The translations under genes and the position numbers were made by a program. Under the pieces are notes generated by a model that had not been told where the DNA came from, did no database searches, and worked only from the letters and a program-made list of their open reading frames with translations. Positions 1,471 through 51,348 of a DNA stretch of 64,000 nucleotides are shown here, piece by piece (position 1 is the first letter of the stretch; every line of letters begins with the position of its first letter). The stretch is from Methanoculleus frigidifontis (GTDB taxonomy: Archaea > Halobacteriota > Methanomicrobia > Methanomicrobiales > Methanoculleaceae), in the NCBI RefSeq assembly GCF_030464345.1, contig NZ_VCYH01000005.1, positions 124,001 through 188,000 on the forward strand, in the 5' to 3' direction.

Positions 1471-1818
1471 TTACAGCACCCCGCATTCCGAGAGGTGGTA
1501 GAGCCTTCTGACCCGTTCCGCCGCATCTTCCGATACGTGCGCGGTGATCTCCGCGAGCACTGCTTCGACGTCTTCTTCGGGTATGCACGAAAGGCTCTCG
1601 CGCCCTTTCAGTATCGCTTCGGTGAGGTACTGCCAGTCCTCATCCGAGAGGCGGCGGATGCGTTCTGCAAAATCATCTGCATCGTCTGCAACATGGTTCG
1701 AGACCGGTGGGAGGATCGACTGGAATGCATGCCCCGCTCCCGGGCAGATGACATCCGCGTACTCGGGGGCGAGTTTCCGGAAGATGGTCAGGTCTTTTTC
1801 GTCAAGTTTACGTGGCAT
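1471..1818 (-). CDS. Hypothetical protein, acidic, helical
   Basis: A 115-residue acidic soluble protein that I do not recognise. It begins MPRKLDEKDL and looks mostly helical with many Asp and Glu. No signal peptide or membrane segment is visible. GGAAG lies about ten bases before the ATG. The motif CPGAGHAF near residue 30 and a pair of later cysteines (SCIPE, ECGVL) could bind a metal but do not form a known site. It is read leftward, like the tautomerase upstream of it, about 100 bases away, and is probably transcribed separately or at the end of that unit. Confidence 0.65.
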   Translation of the reverse strand: MPRKLDEKDLTIFRKLAPEYADVICPGAGHAFQSILPPVSNHVADDADDFAERIRRLSDEDWQYLTEAILKGRESLSCIPEEDVEAVLAEITAHVSEDAAERVRRLYHLSECGVL

Positions 1819-1922
1819 GGCAATCGCTTCCGCGGCAATGCGCCGTAGTGCATACGTGCTCCCGGGGAGTATGTATCGTTTCCGCCTGCCGGCGGGAAGA
1901 GAAGAAAGGATTGTCAGAGTCT

Positions 1923-2108
1923 CTACGATTCACTGAGCAGTTTTCCGGACTTTGCGATGTTCTCGCGATCGAGTTCTTCGATCAGAATGGTGACCCAGTC
2001 CGGACTGACGCCGAGCGTGCTGGTGATTGTGGCCGTGATCTCTTCTGCCAGACGGCGCTTCTGCTCGAGCGTTTTGCCCTTCGACATCTGTATGGTAACA
2101 ACAGGCAT
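1923..2108 (-). CDS. 4-oxalocrotonate tautomerase-family protein
   Basis: A 61-residue protein of the tautomerase superfamily, the usual length for 4-OT monomers. After removal of Met the N-terminus is Pro, the catalytic general base of the family (MPVVTIQM), and the following beta strand, the helix KTLEQKRRLAEEI and the strand DWVTILIEE fit the fold. The natural substrate in methanogens is unknown. The start is firm: GAAGGAGAT lies seven bases upstream. It follows the polyprenyl synthase by 33 bases on the same strand, so the two are probably co-transcribed. Confidence 0.88.
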   Translation of the reverse strand: MPVVTIQMSKGKTLEQKRRLAEEITATITSTLGVSPDWVTILIEELDRENIAKSGKLLSES

Positions 2109-2141
2109 GGTATCTCCTTCTCATGTTGACCGGTCGATTAT

Positions 2142-3134
2142 TTATATCCGGCTCATACGGTCTTCGGTGGGCACTCGCTCGGCAAGCATCATGGCCGCTA
2201 TCTCGTGGGCTATGCGGGTGAACGCCGTGCCTTCGGCAGGGGCTACGACGCTCCGGTCGGGTGTGGTGAGGCTGTCGGCAGCATGCGCGATCTCGCGGTC
2301 CAGCATCGCCGTCAGAGCCCGCTCGATCCCTTCCGATGACCAGAGATACTTCACCTTCGCGATGCTCGGGCGCTTCTGCAGAAGGTCGCGGACCAGTTCG
2401 CTGCAGAGCCTGTCTGCACAGACACAGCGCAGCAGCAGCATCTCCGAGCCGAAACCGCTCCGCTTCCTGCCTCCCGCAATCGCCGAAAGATCGGCGATGT
2501 CGTCGGCTATCTGCATCGCTTTGCCAACACGGAGGCCGTAGTCGGCAAAGGCTCCCACGGTGCTGCCGTTCCTGCCGGCGGCCATACTGCCCCAGGCGGC
2601 GGTGAGCGAGAAGAGGTGCCCGGTCTTTCGGGTGATGATCGCATCGTAGAGTGATGTCGCCGGGAGCTCCGGCCGCAGGAAGAGCTCTTTCATCACCCCA
2701 GACGCCATGCTCCGCTGCGTTGCCGAGAGCATGGTGACGTAATCCGGCCCGTATGGGGCTGCGAGCGCGTACGGCAGCGAGAGGACACCGATGGTATCCA
2801 GCATTGCCTGTTTCTCTCCCCTGGTCACGTGGAGCGTGCGGACTCCCCGGCGGACGGTATCCTCGTCCAGCATGTCGTCGAGGATCAGGCTGGATGCATG
2901 TGCAAGCTCCACGGCGCATGCCAGGTCGAGCACCTTCTCCGGGGTATTCCGCCGCTGCGTGAGGTTCCGGTGAACGTAAATCAGCAGCCCTGCCCGCATC
3001 CGCTTGCCTTTCAGGAGGAGCGGGAGCAGCTCCTCGTCGAAGGCTTCGTCCGTGGTCATCACCTCCCTGACCCGCCGGTTGACGGCCGGCCGGATCTCTG
3101 CGAGGAGATCGCGCAGCGCAGTCAGAGAGGCCAC
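2142..3134 (-). CDS. Polyprenyl (isoprenyl) diphosphate synthase family protein
   Basis: A 330-residue trans-prenyltransferase-fold protein that condenses isopentenyl diphosphate with an allylic diphosphate to make isoprenoid chains for archaeal lipids or quinone-like carriers. The first Asp-rich motif reads DDMLDED near residue 87 and the second reads ADDIAD near residue 210; GKRMRAG near residue 43 matches the substrate-binding Lys/Arg region. The start is GTG at 3132-3134 with only a weak Shine-Dalgarno. Its 5' end overlaps the remnant of a UbiA-like prenyltransferase, which is a natural partner because UbiA enzymes use such chains. Product chain length cannot be read from the sequence. 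Confidence 0.85.
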   Translation of the reverse strand: MASLTALRDLLAEIRPAVNRRVREVMTTDEAFDEELLPLLLKGKRMRAGLLIYVHRNLTQRRNTPEKVLDLACAVELAHASSLILDDMLDEDTVRRGVRTLHVTRGEKQAMLDTIGVLSLPYALAAPYGPDYVTMLSATQRSMASGVMKELFLRPELPATSLYDAIITRKTGHLFSLTAAWGSMAAGRNGSTVGAFADYGLRVGKAMQIADDIADLSAIAGGRKRSGFGSEMLLLRCVCADRLCSELVRDLLQKRPSIAKVKYLWSSEGIERALTAMLDREIAHAADSLTTPDRSVVAPAEGTAFTRIAHEIAAMMLAERVPTEDRMSRI

Positions 3135-3454
3135 CCCCGGGAGGATCCGGGATCATGATGGACGCTCACCCCGAGGCGGACGAGCGGGAGGGCGAAGGAG
3201 TAGGCGATGCTGAGATAGAACTGCCCAGGACGGAGGGCGCCGGTGCTCGCCTCGAGTTTCGTTCCCCCATCGCGGAGGCACGCCTGCCGGGCAGCATCGA
3301 CGCGATCTCCGAGAGCGATGAGGAGGAGTGGCCAGTCCACACCGACATATCTCGCCTGCCGGGCCGCAGCGCCGATCCCGATGAGGGAGCCGCCGATGCT
3401 CCATGCCGTCAGCGGTTTGACCCGTGCAGGGTGAAGGAGTGCGCGATAATCCAT
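3122..3454 (-). pseudogene. UbiA-family prenyltransferase remnant with internal deletion
   Basis: An open frame of 110 residues with a good ribosome site (GAGGAGG before the ATG at 3454). The first 48 residues (MDYRALLHPARVKPLTAW..., then a hydrophobic segment) look like the N-terminus of a UbiA-type membrane prenyltransferase, and the last 50 or so (KLEASTGALRPGQFY, then another hydrophobic segment) look like the family C-terminus. The middle, with both catalytic Asp motifs and most of the membrane helices, is absent; the family is usually near 280-300 residues. The join lies near 3305-3312 (IALG/DRVDA) and is in frame. I infer an inactive internally deleted gene; the C-terminal match is weaker than the N-terminal one. 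Confidence 0.5.
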
Positions 3455-3526
3455 AACACTTAAGTTCCTCCTCTTCTGGTGATCGGGTAGTCTGGTACGT
3501 AACCGGTTGTGTAGGAGTGCCAGCAT

Positions 3527-3835
3527 GGATTAATAATGTGTGGGTGGCACGCCACTTCTCCTTCTTCTCTTCAGTTCCGCTCCGGTGATACATCTGCGGT
3601 TTGCCGGGACCGTCCGATGGCCGAAACGTATTTACGCCTCATCCGGATAATCGGTCTTCCCCGTCCCAGGTCGATCCGGGCGGCCGGACCCTGTGAGCGG
3701 AGGGGAAAGTATGGGAACAAAATTTTCAGAGTCTGGCTTTGTCTACGCGGGTGCCGCAGAAGGATTGGTCTGTCGATAAAGACTGCAGAAAACCCGGGTG
3801 CACTACCCGGCGGATCACGAGGAGGTTTTTGAAAC
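3527..3835. other. Intergenic region before the kinase gene
   Basis: About 310 bases with no frame that has a supported start. It contains the promoters for the leftward UbiA-remnant unit and the rightward kinase unit. Near the kinase, ACCCGGGTGCACTACCCGG could form a short hairpin, followed by the ribosome site GAGGAGG. I see no tRNA or repeat. Confidence 0.5.
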
Positions 3836-4783
3836 GTGGCGGAGCAGTACGTTAATACACTGAAACCGGGCGACCCATTCAGGGACTGGTTGGTCGAGGT
3901 GCTCGGCGACCGGGTGCATAACCCGGCGTGCAGAGTACGGGTGTACCGGATCAGTCCGGCATCCCATACGGTCTGCCGGTATGCGTTCTCCGGCGAGAAG
4001 TTCAGCGTAGTCGGCAAGTTCTTCGGCGAGCCGACAGGCGTGATGAGACACTATAATGAGGAAAAAGCGATGAGGAACGAGTACCAACGCCTCAAACAAG
4101 CTTCAATGGTGATCCATGTTCCCCGGCCGATCACGTGCCGAGGTAACTTCCATAATGTCGTTATTACCGACTACATCAAGGGTGTAGCGCTCAGGAAGTA
4201 CCTCCGGCATGAACATCATCTCTATGATCGCCTCTCGTCGGTCGCAGCGCTGCTCCGGAGGCTCCATGACGGAACACGTGGTCCATGCAATATTCAGCGT
4301 GAATTCGGACAGTTTCACAAAGTACTCGATCAAAATCGGCTGGACGCCGATCAGCGGGAACAGTTCAATCACCTCCTTGGAGGGTGGTGGGATGCCGGGC
4401 TGCTGCATGGTTTCCACGGGTCACTGATCCATGGGGATGCGACCCCGGCCAATTACATCCATGTCGATGGAAAGGTCTACGCAATCGACTTTGAAAACGG
4501 GTTGCGAAATGCGCATCCAATCCACGACCTGGGCGTTCTCTCTGCCGAGATGAAGCATTTTTTTGCGTCCCGTTTCGACGATGGTGAGAGGAGCGAGCCT
4601 TACATCGGTCATCTCCTCTGGCGCTACAGCAGAGGTGAGGATGATTTTTACAAAATAACTGATGTACTGCCGTTCTTCATAGCGTTTGGATATATGCGGA
4701 TCGCACGGCTCGGATGGGCACCATCGCACCGGGAGTATCTCATAGGGGAGGCGAAAGCATGTTTGAGGTCACGTTTAACATAA
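3836..4783 (+). CDS. Aminoglycoside phosphotransferase (APH)-fold kinase
   Basis: A 315-residue kinase-like protein that would phosphorylate a small molecule with ATP. The catalytic loop is visible as HGDATPANYIH (residue 200 region) and the metal-binding motif as AIDFENG about 15 residues later; VITDYIKG is the hinge before the C-lobe. Start is GTG, chosen because GAGGAGG lies eight bases upstream. The following HAD phosphatase overlaps its 3' end by 25 bases, so the two are co-translated and may act on related phosphorylated compounds. Base composition is lower in GC than the flanking genes, which could mean transfer. The substrate is unknown; antibiotic resistance should not be assumed. 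Confidence 0.8.
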   Translation: MAEQYVNTLKPGDPFRDWLVEVLGDRVHNPACRVRVYRISPASHTVCRYAFSGEKFSVVGKFFGEPTGVMRHYNEEKAMRNEYQRLKQASMVIHVPRPITCRGNFHNVVITDYIKGVALRKYLRHEHHLYDRLSSVAALLRRLHDGTRGPCNIQREFGQFHKVLDQNRLDADQREQFNHLLGGWWDAGLLHGFHGSLIHGDATPANYIHVDGKVYAIDFENGLRNAHPIHDLGVLSAEMKHFFASRFDDGERSEPYIGHLLWRYSRGEDDFYKITDVLPFFIAFGYMRIARLGWAPSHREYLIGEAKACLRSRLT

Positions 4784-5430
4784 AAAAGGTGAAAGGCGTT
4801 CTCTTTGATTGTTACGACACCCTCGTCGACATAAAAACCGATGAGGGGAGCACACAGACCTATGAAGTGCTGAGCAACTGGCTCATCTATCAGGGTGTCC
4901 GGATAACGCCGGACAGGCTGCGCGACGCCTATAAACAACGGGTACGGGAACGGATAGAGGCGTCGTGGGAGCGGCACCCCGATGTCCGGGTGGAGGAGGC
5001 CTTTGCAGAGATCTGTGCGGAGCACGCCATCTGGGAGATCGACGAAAAGCACCTGGGAATCCAGGCTGCCCGCTCGTTCCGGGCGGCCTCGCTCCGGCGA
5101 CTGCATGCGCATATCAAGAGCCATCGGCTGCTCGATATTTTTCAGGATCTTCCCAAAGGGGTTGTTTCGAACGGACAGCGGGTCTTCTCGGAGCGTGAAA
5201 TGCGGGCGCTCGGCTTTTACGACCGGTTCAATTTTGTGATCTTCTCTTCGGACGTTGGGTGCAAGAAACCGAATCCGCGGATCTTCATACTGGCGCTTGA
5301 GAGGCTGGGCCTTGAGCCCGAGGAGACGCTCTTCATCGGCGACGGCTATGAGAATGATATCGTCGCGCCGATGAAGATCGGGATGCAGGCGCTTTTCATC
5401 GACGAGGCATGGAAGTATTTCAATCTGTGA
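4759..5430 (+). CDS. HAD-family hydrolase
   Basis: A 223-residue haloacid dehalogenase-type phosphatase. Motif I is DCYDTLVD with the nucleophile Asp near residue 14, the motif II Ser/Thr region is VVSNGQ, the Lys is in GCKKPNPRIF, and the last Asp motif is FIGDGYENDI. The cap between motifs I and II is helical, as in subfamily I. I chose ATG at 4759 because AGGGGAGGCG precedes it; a longer in-frame start at 4714 lies well inside the kinase. It overlaps the kinase gene and is part of the same operon. Substrate is unknown. Confidence 0.87.
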   Translation: MFEVTFNIKKVKGVLFDCYDTLVDIKTDEGSTQTYEVLSNWLIYQGVRITPDRLRDAYKQRVRERIEASWERHPDVRVEEAFAEICAEHAIWEIDEKHLGIQAARSFRAASLRRLHAHIKSHRLLDIFQDLPKGVVSNGQRVFSEREMRALGFYDRFNFVIFSSDVGCKKPNPRIFILALERLGLEPEETLFIGDGYENDIVAPMKIGMQALFIDEAWKYFNL

Positions 5431-5468
5431 AGAAACTGGCAGGCCGTAATCGGGGAGGGGTGAAGGAT

Positions 5469-5552
5469 ATGGAAAGGCAGATGCGTGCATGCAGGATGTG
5501 CTACGGTGGCATGGACGTTTGTTGCCGATGCTTTTCTGGTGCATCCGGGTGA
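5469..5552 (+). CDS. Possible Cys-rich microprotein (27 aa)
   Basis: A 27-codon frame starting at ATG 5469, preceded by a strong Shine-Dalgarno run (GGGGAGGGGTGAAGG) and only 38 bases after the HAD stop. It has five cysteines arranged CxxC, then CCxC, in the second half, an unusual density for random sequence. If real it could be a metal-binding peptide in the kinase-HAD operon. Nothing else supports it, and the ribosome-site match could be chance in a G-rich stretch. Confidence 0.3.
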   Translation: MERQMRACRMCYGGMDVCCRCFSGASG

Positions 5553-5760
5553 CTTTAGCCCGCTCCCCTGTATTCCTCGTTGGTGGTGGAAATATGTAAA
5601 TCCCTATACTTCGACTCTCATGTTCTATACTCAATGCGAAAATTATATATTATGTAGGGGCAGAGGAGTATCTAAGCCCGGGAGGTGAATCAGATAGACG
5701 TACCAAACCTGGCACCCAGAAACCCTTCATGTATCGCTGTCGGAGATCCAGACCGGAACG

Positions 5761-6537
5761 GTGATGGCAATTTCCAGGACTGATCCCCTGCCGGATCACT
5801 GGATCGGTGTAGATCTGAACACAACCGGTCATATTGCCGTCGTTGCCCACCCAACGACCGGTAAAGTGATGAAACTCGGGAAGAAAACCCCGCATGTTCA
5901 CGCGAAGTACAGCCACCTTCTCCAGCGCTACCGCACGTCCGGGAAGCGTGCGAAAGTAAAGAAGATCCGGAACCGGGAGCGCAGTATTCTCAAGGATCTG
6001 AACCATCAGATCAGCAAACAGATCGTCGGTCTGGCACGGGTGCTCGACTGTGGCATCAAACTGGAAAGACTTTACAGCAAAGGACAGATCCAGAAGCGTA
6101 AACAGACCGCTTCGTACGAATTTTCGTTAAACAACGGCTCTTTTTATCAGCTCCAGAAGATGGTGGAGACCAAGGCACGCAAAGCAGGGGTCTCTGTCGC
6201 ATACGTAAATCCTGCCTTTACCTCGAAGAACTGCAGCCGGTGCGGCATGAACGGCATCCGGAAACGCAAACGGTTTGAGTGTCCGCACTGCGGGCACGCT
6301 GATCACGCTGATGTGAACGCGGCGTTCAATATCGCGTCCGTATCGCTGGGCGTCGATCGCTTGTACGCAGACAGGGATGCGTGCGACGGGAGCACTGATA
6401 CCCCGAAGAAGGCGCTTGCGAGAACGCCGCAGCACTCAAAGCCCGGTGTGTACCGCCGCCCGGGCATGTCAGAGTCCATTCATGCAGAGAACATCTTCGC
6501 GATTCTCGAGCAGCTATCGATCGCGGGCGTCGGATAA
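5761..6537 (+). CDS. TnpB-like (IS605 OrfB) protein, N-terminally truncated
   Basis: The C-terminal two thirds of a TnpB, the RNA-guided nuclease of IS200/IS605 elements. RuvC-I is WIGVDLNTTGH (Asp near residue 18), RuvC-II is IKLERL, the zinc finger is CSRCG...CPHCG, and RuvC-III is HADVNAAFN, so all catalytic acids are present. Full TnpBs are near 370-420 residues with an N-terminal RNA/DNA-binding lobe before RuvC-I; here the frame is open only back to a stop at 5695, giving 258 residues from GTG/ATG 5761. No TnpA transposase lies nearby. The element is probably inactive unless the missing lobe is supplied otherwise. GC content is lower than the neighbours. Confidence 0.8.
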   Translation: MMAISRTDPLPDHWIGVDLNTTGHIAVVAHPTTGKVMKLGKKTPHVHAKYSHLLQRYRTSGKRAKVKKIRNRERSILKDLNHQISKQIVGLARVLDCGIKLERLYSKGQIQKRKQTASYEFSLNNGSFYQLQKMVETKARKAGVSVAYVNPAFTSKNCSRCGMNGIRKRKRFECPHCGHADHADVNAAFNIASVSLGVDRLYADRDACDGSTDTPKKALARTPQHSKPGVYRRPGMSESIHAENIFAILEQLSIAGVG

Positions 6538-6538
6538 C

Positions 6539-6560
6539 GGGGCGGAATCCGCCGCCCCCT
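6539..6560 (+). terminator. Hairpin just after tnpB
   Basis: GGCGG (6541-6545) AAT CCGCC (6549-6553) is a perfect inverted repeat, extended by flanking G and C runs and followed by TTTT. It begins one base after the TnpB stop. It may be a terminator or, since TnpB elements encode their guide RNA over the 3' end of the gene, the end of an omega-RNA scaffold. Confidence 0.5.
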
Positions 6561-6726
6561 TTTGCGTGGGTATCGGGCAAGTCCGGCGTCTGCCTCCCTC
6601 CGCCGCTCTGCGTTGTGGTGGAAAGAAAGCAAGGGAGTCCAAAACCGGCCAGTTCCCACGCACGATCTTCCGCAGAGCCCGCTCACCGATCCTTAATGGG
6701 GGGCTCGAACGAAGAGAAGATTCAGG

Positions 6727-7468
6727 ATGAAAGACTCGCACTGGCTGATCACCGTTGCATTTGGGCTCATCACCTTTTTCACCGGTCTTTACGGCCCTCA
6801 CTTTCTCGTGTTTCAGGATCTCCACCCTATCCGGGATCTATACGCTCGGCGACATCGCGTTTGTCCCCCTCGAGGTGCTGCTGGTGACAATCGTCATCCA
6901 CCAGATGCTCGATATCCGGGATAGGCGAAAGAGGCTTGAAATGCTGAATATGATCATCGGAACGTTCTTCTCGGCGGTCGGGACGCAGCTGCTGACGTAC
7001 CGCTCCGACAACGACCCCCATATTGCCAATCTCCGGGAGCATCTGATCGTTGCAAGCGACTGGACGGACGAGACGTTCCGGAAGGTCGGCCGGGAGCTGC
7101 GCGATCACGCGTACGCGGTGGCTATCGACCGGGTCGACCTCTCCGGGCTGAAGGAGTTCCTGGACTCACGGGAGGAGGTTCTGCTCCGCATGCTCGAGAA
7201 CCCGACGTTGCTCGAGCACGAATCGTTCAACGAGCTTCTCCGTGCCGCCTCCCACCTCGCCGAGGACCTCCAGCGCCGCCCTGACGTTGCGTCGCTGCCG
7301 GCAACCGACCTCGGGCACCTCGGCGGCGACATCAACCGTGTCTACCGCCTCCTTGTCCACCAGTGGCTCGACTACATGCAGTATCTGCAGAAGAACTATC
7401 CATACCTCTTCTCGCTTGCCCTGCGCACGAACCCGTTCGACGAGACGGCGTCGGCGATCGTCGGGTGA
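6727..7468 (+). pseudogene. Two-TM membrane protein gene broken by a 2-nt deletion
   Basis: Two frames together make one protein of about 247 residues. Frame one runs from ATG 6727 (MKDSHWLITVAFGLITFF, a clear first membrane helix) to about HPIRD at 6837. Frame two continues as IYTLGDIAFVPLEVLLVTIV (second helix) and a soluble domain to the stop at 7468. Adding two bases between CGGGAT and CTATACG would join them as PIRD-IYTLGD. The second frame alone has an in-frame ATG at 6755, but its first 25 residues look unlike a protein N-terminus. The soluble part is helical, of unknown function. The break is either a real mutation or a sequencing error. Confidence 0.65.
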
Positions 7469-7486
7469 GGGGGAGTTCCCCCTTTT

Positions 7487-8314
7487 TCAGGCCTGCAGGA
7501 GGATCTCCCGGATCTCTGCGGTTGCATCCGGGAACCTTTTATCGAGCCTGCTCTTCTTGACGTTCTCCTTGACGATCCACCTGATATCGGTGTTCTGGAG
7601 TTCGGCGAGCTGGCGGAGGTATTCGAACCCCTGGTCAGGCAGAGCGTTGACGACGACGCTCAGCGTATACCCGAGCCCCTTGCGGAGCACCCGGAACTCT
7701 TCGGAGGCCTGGTGCGGCGCCGTGTACACCCGGATCAGGATCTTGCGGTGCAACATCAGTGCCGCCTCTGCAACGGCAGCGTCCTGGAGGAGATCGGGTT
7801 CGGCGATGCCTGCGGCCGCAGCTCGCATGGGGAGCCATGCGCCGCTCTCAACCCAGGTTTCGAGCTCCGAAAGGGTTCTGTCCCGTGCCGCCGCGAGCAG
7901 ATCTGCGACGCCCATCGCCGCCGCCTCCCGCTCCCGCCAGCGGGGGTCGGTGGAGGCCTGGTGGATCTGCAGGAGAGCGAGGTCGGCAAATGCAGGGGAT
8001 ATTGCGCCGACCGCCCCGATCCCGCGGATGCCGCAGAACGAGAGGAACTCGTGCGGGTCGCCGGTGGGCGCATCGTCGGGTTCGATGGCTGCCAGTTCCA
8101 CGCAGAGGTTCCAGAGGATGCGCCGGTCCTCGGCATCCTGCGTTGCGTATTCACGGACGGTCTCGGTGAACGCACGGGCGAGTTCCAGGTTGGCCCGCGG
8201 TCCCGGGAGGTTGCTGCCGGCGACCAGGTAGGCTATCAGATCGTCCGCGTTTCCGCTCGCCAGAAATCCGGAGAGGTGGCGGGAGACGTCCTGAAGGTAG
8301 TTCTGTTCGGTCAT
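7487..8314 (-). CDS. HEAT-like helical repeat protein paired with a small GTPase
   Basis: A 275-residue soluble, almost wholly helical protein with Ala/Leu/Arg-rich segments of about 35-40 residues, resembling HEAT or DNA-alkylation-repeat solenoids. No catalytic motif is visible. I chose the ATG at 8314 (MTEQNYLQDV); a longer frame to 8512 runs into the GTPase gene and has a low-complexity translation. It follows the GTPase by 56 bases on the same strand, so it is a candidate effector or partner of that GTPase. The solenoid call rests on helix pattern only. Confidence 0.75.
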   Translation of the reverse strand: MTEQNYLQDVSRHLSGFLASGNADDLIAYLVAGSNLPGPRANLELARAFTETVREYATQDAEDRRILWNLCVELAAIEPDDAPTGDPHEFLSFCGIRGIGAVGAISPAFADLALLQIHQASTDPRWREREAAAMGVADLLAAARDRTLSELETWVESGAWLPMRAAAAGIAEPDLLQDAAVAEAALMLHRKILIRVYTAPHQASEEFRVLRKGLGYTLSVVVNALPDQGFEYLRQLAELQNTDIRWIVKENVKKSRLDKRFPDATAEIREILLQA

Positions 8315-49480: not shown

Positions 49481-50282
49481 CGATTCACGGATGGGCGGGG
49501 GTGGTGTTGAGAGTATCGGTCGGCAGCTTCGCCGGCCAGTCTCTCGAGCAGCAGGCGTGCCGCCTGTTTGTCGAGCGGCTGGTTGCCGTTGCCGCATTTC
49601 GGGGAGTAGATGCAGGCGGGGCACAGTACTGGTCGAGGGGGTCTCTGAAGGCGACCATGACGGCGACCGCATCGCCCCTGCGCCTGCCTGCCCGCCCCGC
49701 CTGCTGCCAGACCGAGTTCATCGTCCCGGGATACCCGGAGAGGATCGCGCCGTCGAGCGATCCGATGTCGATCCCGAGCTCGAGGGCGTTTGTTGAGACC
49801 ACCCCGGCGAGGTCTCCGCGTTTCAGCGCACCCTCGATTGCGCGGCGCTCTTCCGGGAGATACCCGGCACGGTAGGAGGCGATGCTTCCTGCCCTTTTAG
49901 CGCCGAGTGCCTCCTGCGACCACCGGGTGACGGGCTCCGCCGTCCGCCGGGAGACTGCAAAACAGATGATCCGGCAGTCCTGCCGGAGCGCCTCAACGAA
50001 GAGATCCCGCGTCTCGAGGTGGGCGGACCTGTCGCGGGCTCCCTTCGCAGAGGGGTTGCTGATGACGAGGTGCTCGCCGTTCCTGACCCGCTCGATCGCT
50101 TCGCACTGGTGCGTATACAGCCGGATACCCTTCTGCGCAAGGAAGGCCGCAAGGGCGTCGGGAAGGGGGCGCGAGAGGGTGCCGTACTGCGGCAAGCGCG
50201 GTGGGATCTCTTCGATGTGGGCGATCCGGCTCCGGTATCGCGGATCCTCTGCGAGCAGGCGGACGAGGTCAGGTACTCCCAT
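49477..50282 (-). pseudogene. MrfA/YprA-type DEAD helicase gene, two internal deletions
   Basis: Remnant of a superfamily II helicase with a C-terminal DUF1998 zinc domain. From ATG 50282 (good site GGGAGGAG) the frame gives the N-terminus and [15 protein letters not shown] up to NPSAKG, where motif I should be NPTxxGKT. It jumps there to [15 protein letters not shown], losing motifs I through III, and continues through the motif IV-VI region ([18 protein letters not shown]). Near 49625, after RDPLDQY, it switches frame to [14 protein letters not shown], the DUF1998 Cys cluster, and ends at 49477. About 280 of 750-850 expected codons remain. It cannot be an active helicase. Confidence 0.75.
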
Positions 50283-51348
50283 CCCACTCCTCCCGGAGGT
50301 GAGTGAAGAGGCGGGCAAGCGTTATCAGGTCCTGGTGGTTGTGCTCCACCACCGGCACGAGAGGGCCCGGGTTCCCGGTCCGGAGGTAGGCTTCGTAGAA
50401 CTTGGGTACCATCGCGCTCGGGACATCGTCGCGCCGTTCGATGCCGAAGATCGCCCGCTCGAGCGCAGTCAGCCGGCAGCTCGCGACCTTCTTTCTCCAG
50501 CACCGCCGCGAGAAGTGAAGGGCATCGAAGTGCGGCATGCAAAGGTCCGCGCCGATGCCGTAGTAGGCGAGCCGGTCCTGGATGTACGGGATATCGAAGG
50601 CCCTGCCGTTGAAGGTGACCAGGCATGCACTTTCCCGTGCCAGGCGTTCGACCGCTGCAGAGAGCGCCGCCTCCTCTTCGTCGATCCCGCGGAGCAGGTA
50701 CTGGCGGACGACGATCGCCGCCCCACTCATCTCTGCGACACCGATGAGAATGATCGGCCGGGAGAAGAGTCCCAGCGTCTCGATGTCCAGGAAGACGAAG
50801 TCCTCGGGGTCATGGAATCGGCTCGCCGCCAGCACCAGCGGGTGGGACGCCTGGTGCCTTCTTGCGATATGCTGCATGAGATCGGCGGTCGTCCCGAAGG
50901 CGAGCGTGCGGAGGATGTGATCGGCGTTGCTCCCATACCGCGGGTGCCGGGTCAGGTCGGTGATCGTCTGGTAGCCCACCTGCCGGAGCCGTGCCTCTGT
51001 CCGGTCGCCGACCCCACGGACAAGGGTCAGATCGCCGAGGATCGCCGCTCTGACCCGTTCCCGGTCGGCAGGCTGCATCGCGAGCGGCTCCGAGGACTCG
51101 ATACCGTAGCAGGTGCCGGCATCGGTCCTCTCCTCCCTGCCGTCGAAGAGAGCGTCGAGCGGGGTGTCCCGGTACGCCGCGAGGAGCCGGTGCTGGAGCT
51201 GCCGGGCGCGGTCGTAGTCCGAGCGGAAGAGATGTGCATCATAAAACCCCGCATCACCATTCTCTCCATCGGTCAAAACCTCGTACTCACGGAGGTTCTC
51301 GACGCGCCGGTGCCACTCCCTGCCGATCTGGTCGAAGAGGCCGGCCAT
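50269..51348 (-). CDS. mrfB: MrfB/YprB-type exonuclease (RNase H-like, DEDD)
   Basis: A 359-residue nuclease. A helix-hairpin-helix segment ([18 protein letters not shown]) near residue 110 precedes an RNase H-like exonuclease domain with [19 protein letters not shown] and [10 protein letters not shown], the DEDD acids in order. This is the nuclease partner of the MrfA helicase in a mitomycin-type DNA repair pair known from Bacillus. The gene overlaps the start of the broken helicase by 14 bases. The start at 51348 (MAGLFDQIG) is the first with good composition. Confidence 0.88.

Follow-up and report, generated by a model that had tools for sequence, protein, structure and literature searches.

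In Methanoculleus frigidifontis, a 110-residue open reading frame (ORF) next to a polyprenyl diphosphate synthase gene is very probably, as judged from its sequence, the remnant of a gene for a UbiA-family membrane prenyltransferase from which about 215 codons have been lost in frame. On the minus strand of the 64,000-nucleotide (nt) stretch of DNA analysed here (the window), the ORF runs from an ATG at 3454 to a stop codon at 3124–3122 as an open frame with both ends homologous to those of intact synthase-linked UbiA genes. For the most part its history resembles unremarkable gene decay; the one small peculiarity is that the reading frame may have been kept to help translate the next gene. 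The earlier note on this DNA had placed the ORF at 3122–3454 and described a ribosome site leading into it; these coordinates were borne out, on the minus strand, and the ribosome-binding site is an AGGAGG at 3467–3472 (−), 12 nt 5′ of the ATG. An archaeal BRE/TATA-like element (CACCCACACATTATTAAT) at 3529–3545 (−), further 5′ of the remnant and identical in a second Methanoculleus genome, presumably serves as the promoter.

A class-wide search returned one synthase orthologue outside the family, and the best UbiA match lies on its contig as well; a scan of genome contigs recovered three archaeal MAG contigs, OWC_0066, DTU008 and fen_33; the contig scan gave no match when the two truncated proteins served as queries. 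Each of the three contigs encodes an intact UbiA of 312–338 amino acids (aa), with PF01040 matches of 8.6e-20 (fen_33), 1.3e-21 (DTU008) and 1.4e-16 (OWC_0066), in one cluster with the orthologous polyprenyl synthase. In fen_33 and DTU008, UbiA is followed directly by the synthase, and in OWC_0066 a geranylgeranyl-reductase-like gene stands between the two. The reductase-like partners (L076 5346–6359 and L078 956–2005) yielded no Pfam hit at 0.01, and their TIGR02032 matches lie far under its cut-off; similar genes adjoin UbiA in two other genomes (G049 and G052).

In an unconstrained alignment, remnant residues 1–47 (3314–3454, −), which comprise TM1 and the start of TM2, fell on the N terminus of intact UbiA with 28–47% identity to the three relatives, and residues 48–110 (3122–3313, −), which comprise the last helix and the stop, fell on the C terminus, with 34–38% identity to the C-terminal ~55 residues of the fen_33 and DTU008 proteins. 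The deletion junction, located at 3311–3330 (−) by protein alignment and by DNA alignment with the congener, marks the loss of ~215 codons relative to the 312-aa fen_33 protein. We compared the Smith–Waterman score of each part against the three intact relatives with those of 500 shuffles: none of the 500 reached the score of the N-part in any of the three (z 6–11), and none reached that of the C-part for fen_33 and DTU008 (z 7.0 and 7.9). The C-part gave no signal in this comparison against the OWC_0066 UbiA, apart from which there is no serious counter-evidence to the remnant reading. The homologous ends and the synteny thus both point to descent from UbiA, and the reading of the ORF as a UbiA N terminus joined in frame to a UbiA C terminus, which the earlier note had offered as refutable by an intact relative with non-matching ends, has held up in relatives whose two ends match the two segments (two of the three for the C-part).

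What the remnant shares with the synthase-linked archaeal UbiA branch (PF01040; fen_33, DTU008 and OWC_0066) is the N-terminal ~47 and C-terminal ~55 residues and the clustering with a downstream polyprenyl synthase; it differs in having about one-third of the length, neither Asp motif, and at most two or three helices rather than the eight or nine of UbiA, which 110 residues do not accommodate. The first Asp-rich motif of UbiA, NDXXDXXXD (PMC4106721), is present in the congener and the intact relatives in the alignment and absent from the 110 residues, as is the second, DXXXD, which reads MDYPND, MDYRTD and MDMQSD in the intact relatives. Both absences, and that of most helices, had been anticipated in the earlier note. 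In AfUbiA, the Asp motifs coordinate two Mg ions (PMC4106721); because both are missing here, prenyl transfer by the remnant product is not credible. Judged by the loss of both Mg-diphosphate sites and most transmembrane helices, the remnant is unable to catalyse this reaction. The remnant alone does not score above the cut-off of the PF01040 profile, matches none of the Pfam families at E ≤ 10 and matches no NCBIfam model. Our literature search found no paper on UbiA in Methanoculleus.

Within the genus, the comparison was with one other genome, G001, in which a block syntenic with window positions 1480–8141 has 71–79% nucleotide identity. Its truncated UbiA (G001:C1:112618-113094) is 159 aa long from an MDYR start, or 166 aa from an earlier ATG. 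This ORF retains TM1–TM3 and the first Asp motif (QYAAHPLNDLIDRDFD; NDLIDRDFD) and then jumps to the C-terminal segment as in the window, so that everything between Asp motif 1 and the last helix is missing; its match to PF01040 (4.6e-5) falls below the cut-off. The two truncated genes are alike in their synteny, in the promoter-like element, in a stop that overlaps the synthase start and in the 3′ boundary of the loss, which lies at nearly the same codon, and they differ in that the G001 gene keeps TM2–TM3 and Asp motif I. The proteins are 57–60% identical in the N-part and 39–41% identical in the C-part. A truncated gene at this locus is thus present in a second genome that was assembled separately. 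On these alignments, the near-coincident 3′ boundary favours one older deletion, with a second to follow in the lineage of the window, over two independent events.

The loss extends further in the sister genus (g5): among its 26 genomes that have the synthase and usable DNA upstream of it, there is no UbiA-like ORF 5′ of the synthase. In most of these genomes that position is taken up by the divergent neighbour gene, read in antisense, and a promoter-like CCCACACctTTTTTA, similar to the element of Methanoculleus, lies directly 5′ of the synthase. Comparison with the synthase-linked UbiA of related genomes, as the earlier note had proposed, therefore had a mixed outcome: the three MAGs have intact genes with matching ends, the sister genus has none, and the G001 gene is itself truncated, although less so. 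In the window's own genome, full-length UbiA had no match elsewhere at 1e-5 and the missing middle was not found, nor was the geranylgeranyl-reductase-like gene that is its usual partner. The picture is one of a dismantled cluster in which the synthase is retained. UbiA may have been lost stepwise, with the gene less far eroded in G001 and completely lost in the sister genus. Split UbiA genes were also seen elsewhere. A further UbiA gene in the window's genome, G000:C10:670-1391 (L005, L006), is divided over two frames into two PF01040 pieces 2 nt apart, reflecting a frameshift or a sequencing error, and one in another family of the order, G043:C4:78746-79514 (L054), is interrupted by a change of frame at ~79131.

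The adjoining polyprenyl diphosphate synthase (2142–3134, −), which the earlier note had also recognized, is intact, with a PF00348 match of 3.1e-33 and both Asp-rich motifs (DDMLD and DDIAD). The ancestral UbiA gene was located 5′ of it and was probably co-translated with it. Between the window and G001, synthase protein identity is 61–63% and that of neighbouring genes 70–87%, including a conserved divergent APH-type phosphotransferase (3836–4783, +; PF01636 4.2e-12) at 81%. Of the neighbourhood genes compared, the synthase changes fastest; its motifs are intact and its two ends only ~36% identical. At 5761–6537 (+), the window also carries an ORF that resembles TnpB/IS605-type proteins and has a CxxC zinc motif; its counterpart in G001 is at the same position (70% aa identity), and the insertion is therefore an old one common to both.

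The junction between the remnant and the synthase suggests a tentative reason why the frame and both ends of a dead gene persist. An in-frame stop closes the synthase frame 21 nt (window) or 27 nt (G001) 5′ of its only usable start, and the start therefore lies inside the remnant: the GTG overlaps the remnant 3′ end by 13 nt in the window, and the corresponding overlap in G001 is 8 nt (ATGGGTGA). We saw no good internal Shine–Dalgarno sequence before the GTG in the window. In archaeal overlapping pairs coupled by termination–reinitiation (PMC6728339, PMC10666635), the upstream stop overlaps the downstream start, as it does here; in Haloferax, downstream translation at such junctions is lost once the upstream gene contains a stop, and coupling was strict in nine of nine pairs (PMC6728339). 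By analogy, ribosomes translating the remnant would terminate at the synthase start and initiate again at that point, such that frame-keeping deletions would be tolerated and frame-breaking ones would not. Translational coupling of this kind is our preferred candidate explanation for the persistence of the frame. Coupling here is putative, and the case differs from the known pairs in its 13-nt overlap and in having a dead enzyme as the upstream partner. The working range for coupling is −8 to +6 nt (PMC10666635). The junctions of G001 (−8, the 8-nt class), fen_33 (+2, where the sole in-frame synthase start follows the UbiA stop by 2 nt) and OWC_0066 (−4, where the synthase overlaps the upstream reductase-like gene by 4 nt) lie inside it; because the −13 of the window lies outside, the argument is weakened exactly where it is needed.

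Whether the frame is maintained can be judged in part from divergence. Between the window and G001, dN/dS of the remnant is 0.67, not distinguishable from 1, and that of its C-part is 0.33 (LRT 5.9). In simulations of neutral drift, both frames stayed free of stops with a chance of ~0.02–0.08 at 0.25 substitutions per site and lineage, and with indels at an assumed 10% of substitutions the chance was <0.002 even at 0.1. Because both frames stay open, neutral drift throughout the time since the species split is unlikely, and selection probably acted on the frame for much of that time, whether through a gene that stayed intact until recently or through some importance of the frame in its own right. 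Conservation of the 5′ nucleotides as an RNA leader had looked suggestive, with 17 of 22 shared synonymous codons identical versus 101 of 185 in the synthase; this candidate was dropped, given values of 0.59–0.67 in neighbouring genes and similar conservation of the whole intergenic stretch. The pairwise codon model gave an unusable dS for the synthase, which was left out of the comparison.

Plain recent decay competes with the coupling step only, and we consider the two about equally likely. It holds that UbiA was under selection until recently and was then cut independently in both species, in frame by chance, leaving an unmaintained remnant. The frame could be open simply because the deletions are recent, and the well-kept Asp motif 1 of G001, as expected from a recent cut, is not explained by coupling alone. 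The complete loss of the gene in the sister genus, the loss of the partner reductase and the combined dN/dS of 0.67 also fit decay, as does a helicase in the window (49485–50318, −) with similar deletions. The halves of this helicase, joined in the window, are ~500 bases apart in the 760-aa frame of G002, and a second loss with a frame change occurs near residue 221, close to the 3′ end; the likeness of lesions drawn in the earlier note consequently stands for the loss of the middle and not for the whole, and the two are similar rather than identical. G001 and G005 seem to be without a matching helicase. Plain decay must nevertheless invoke coincidence or a hotspot for the near-coincident 3′ boundaries of two cuts, and each in-frame outcome has a chance of ~1/3.

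A frame that is open in two species, a C-part dN/dS of 0.33 and a start, ribosome site and last helix retained in both would also suit a shortened UbiA maintained for a new job, such as a membrane anchor or a synthase partner. We regard this as unlikely, as the two forms differ in length (110 versus 159 aa) and content, their C-parts are just 39–41% identical, the combined dN/dS is near 1 and the AlphaFold model of the remnant is poor (three long helices at low confidence; pLDDT 60, pTM 0.31). Loss of the middle during assembly is more improbable still: the window's genome is a draft of 30 contigs with 2.86% contamination and a second window gene lacks its middle, but the missing segment was not found elsewhere in the assembly and the truncated gene recurs in the separate G001 genome. 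Least probable is a chance likeness of an unrelated small membrane protein. The remnant alone has no Pfam or NCBIfam match; against this, both ends match in the right order beside the same synthase, the G001 counterpart carries the diagnostic Asp motif along with a PF01040 match below threshold, and the intact relatives with matching ends already disfavour it.

Returning to coupling, the fullest form of our proposal, which we consider possible although doubtful, is that a dead enzyme gene has been shrinking stepwise, always in frame, and that all it still does is deliver ribosomes to the gene that follows. This would amount to decay under reading-frame selection, from a catalytic gene to a translated leader. 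One operon here offers a graded series, from an intact pair through forms of 159 aa and 110 aa to a gene that is gone, and more species would show whether genes 5′ of a coupled partner decay under frame selection alone. For annotators, the caution is that a UbiA–synthase pair in this genus does not amount to a functioning prenylation pathway.
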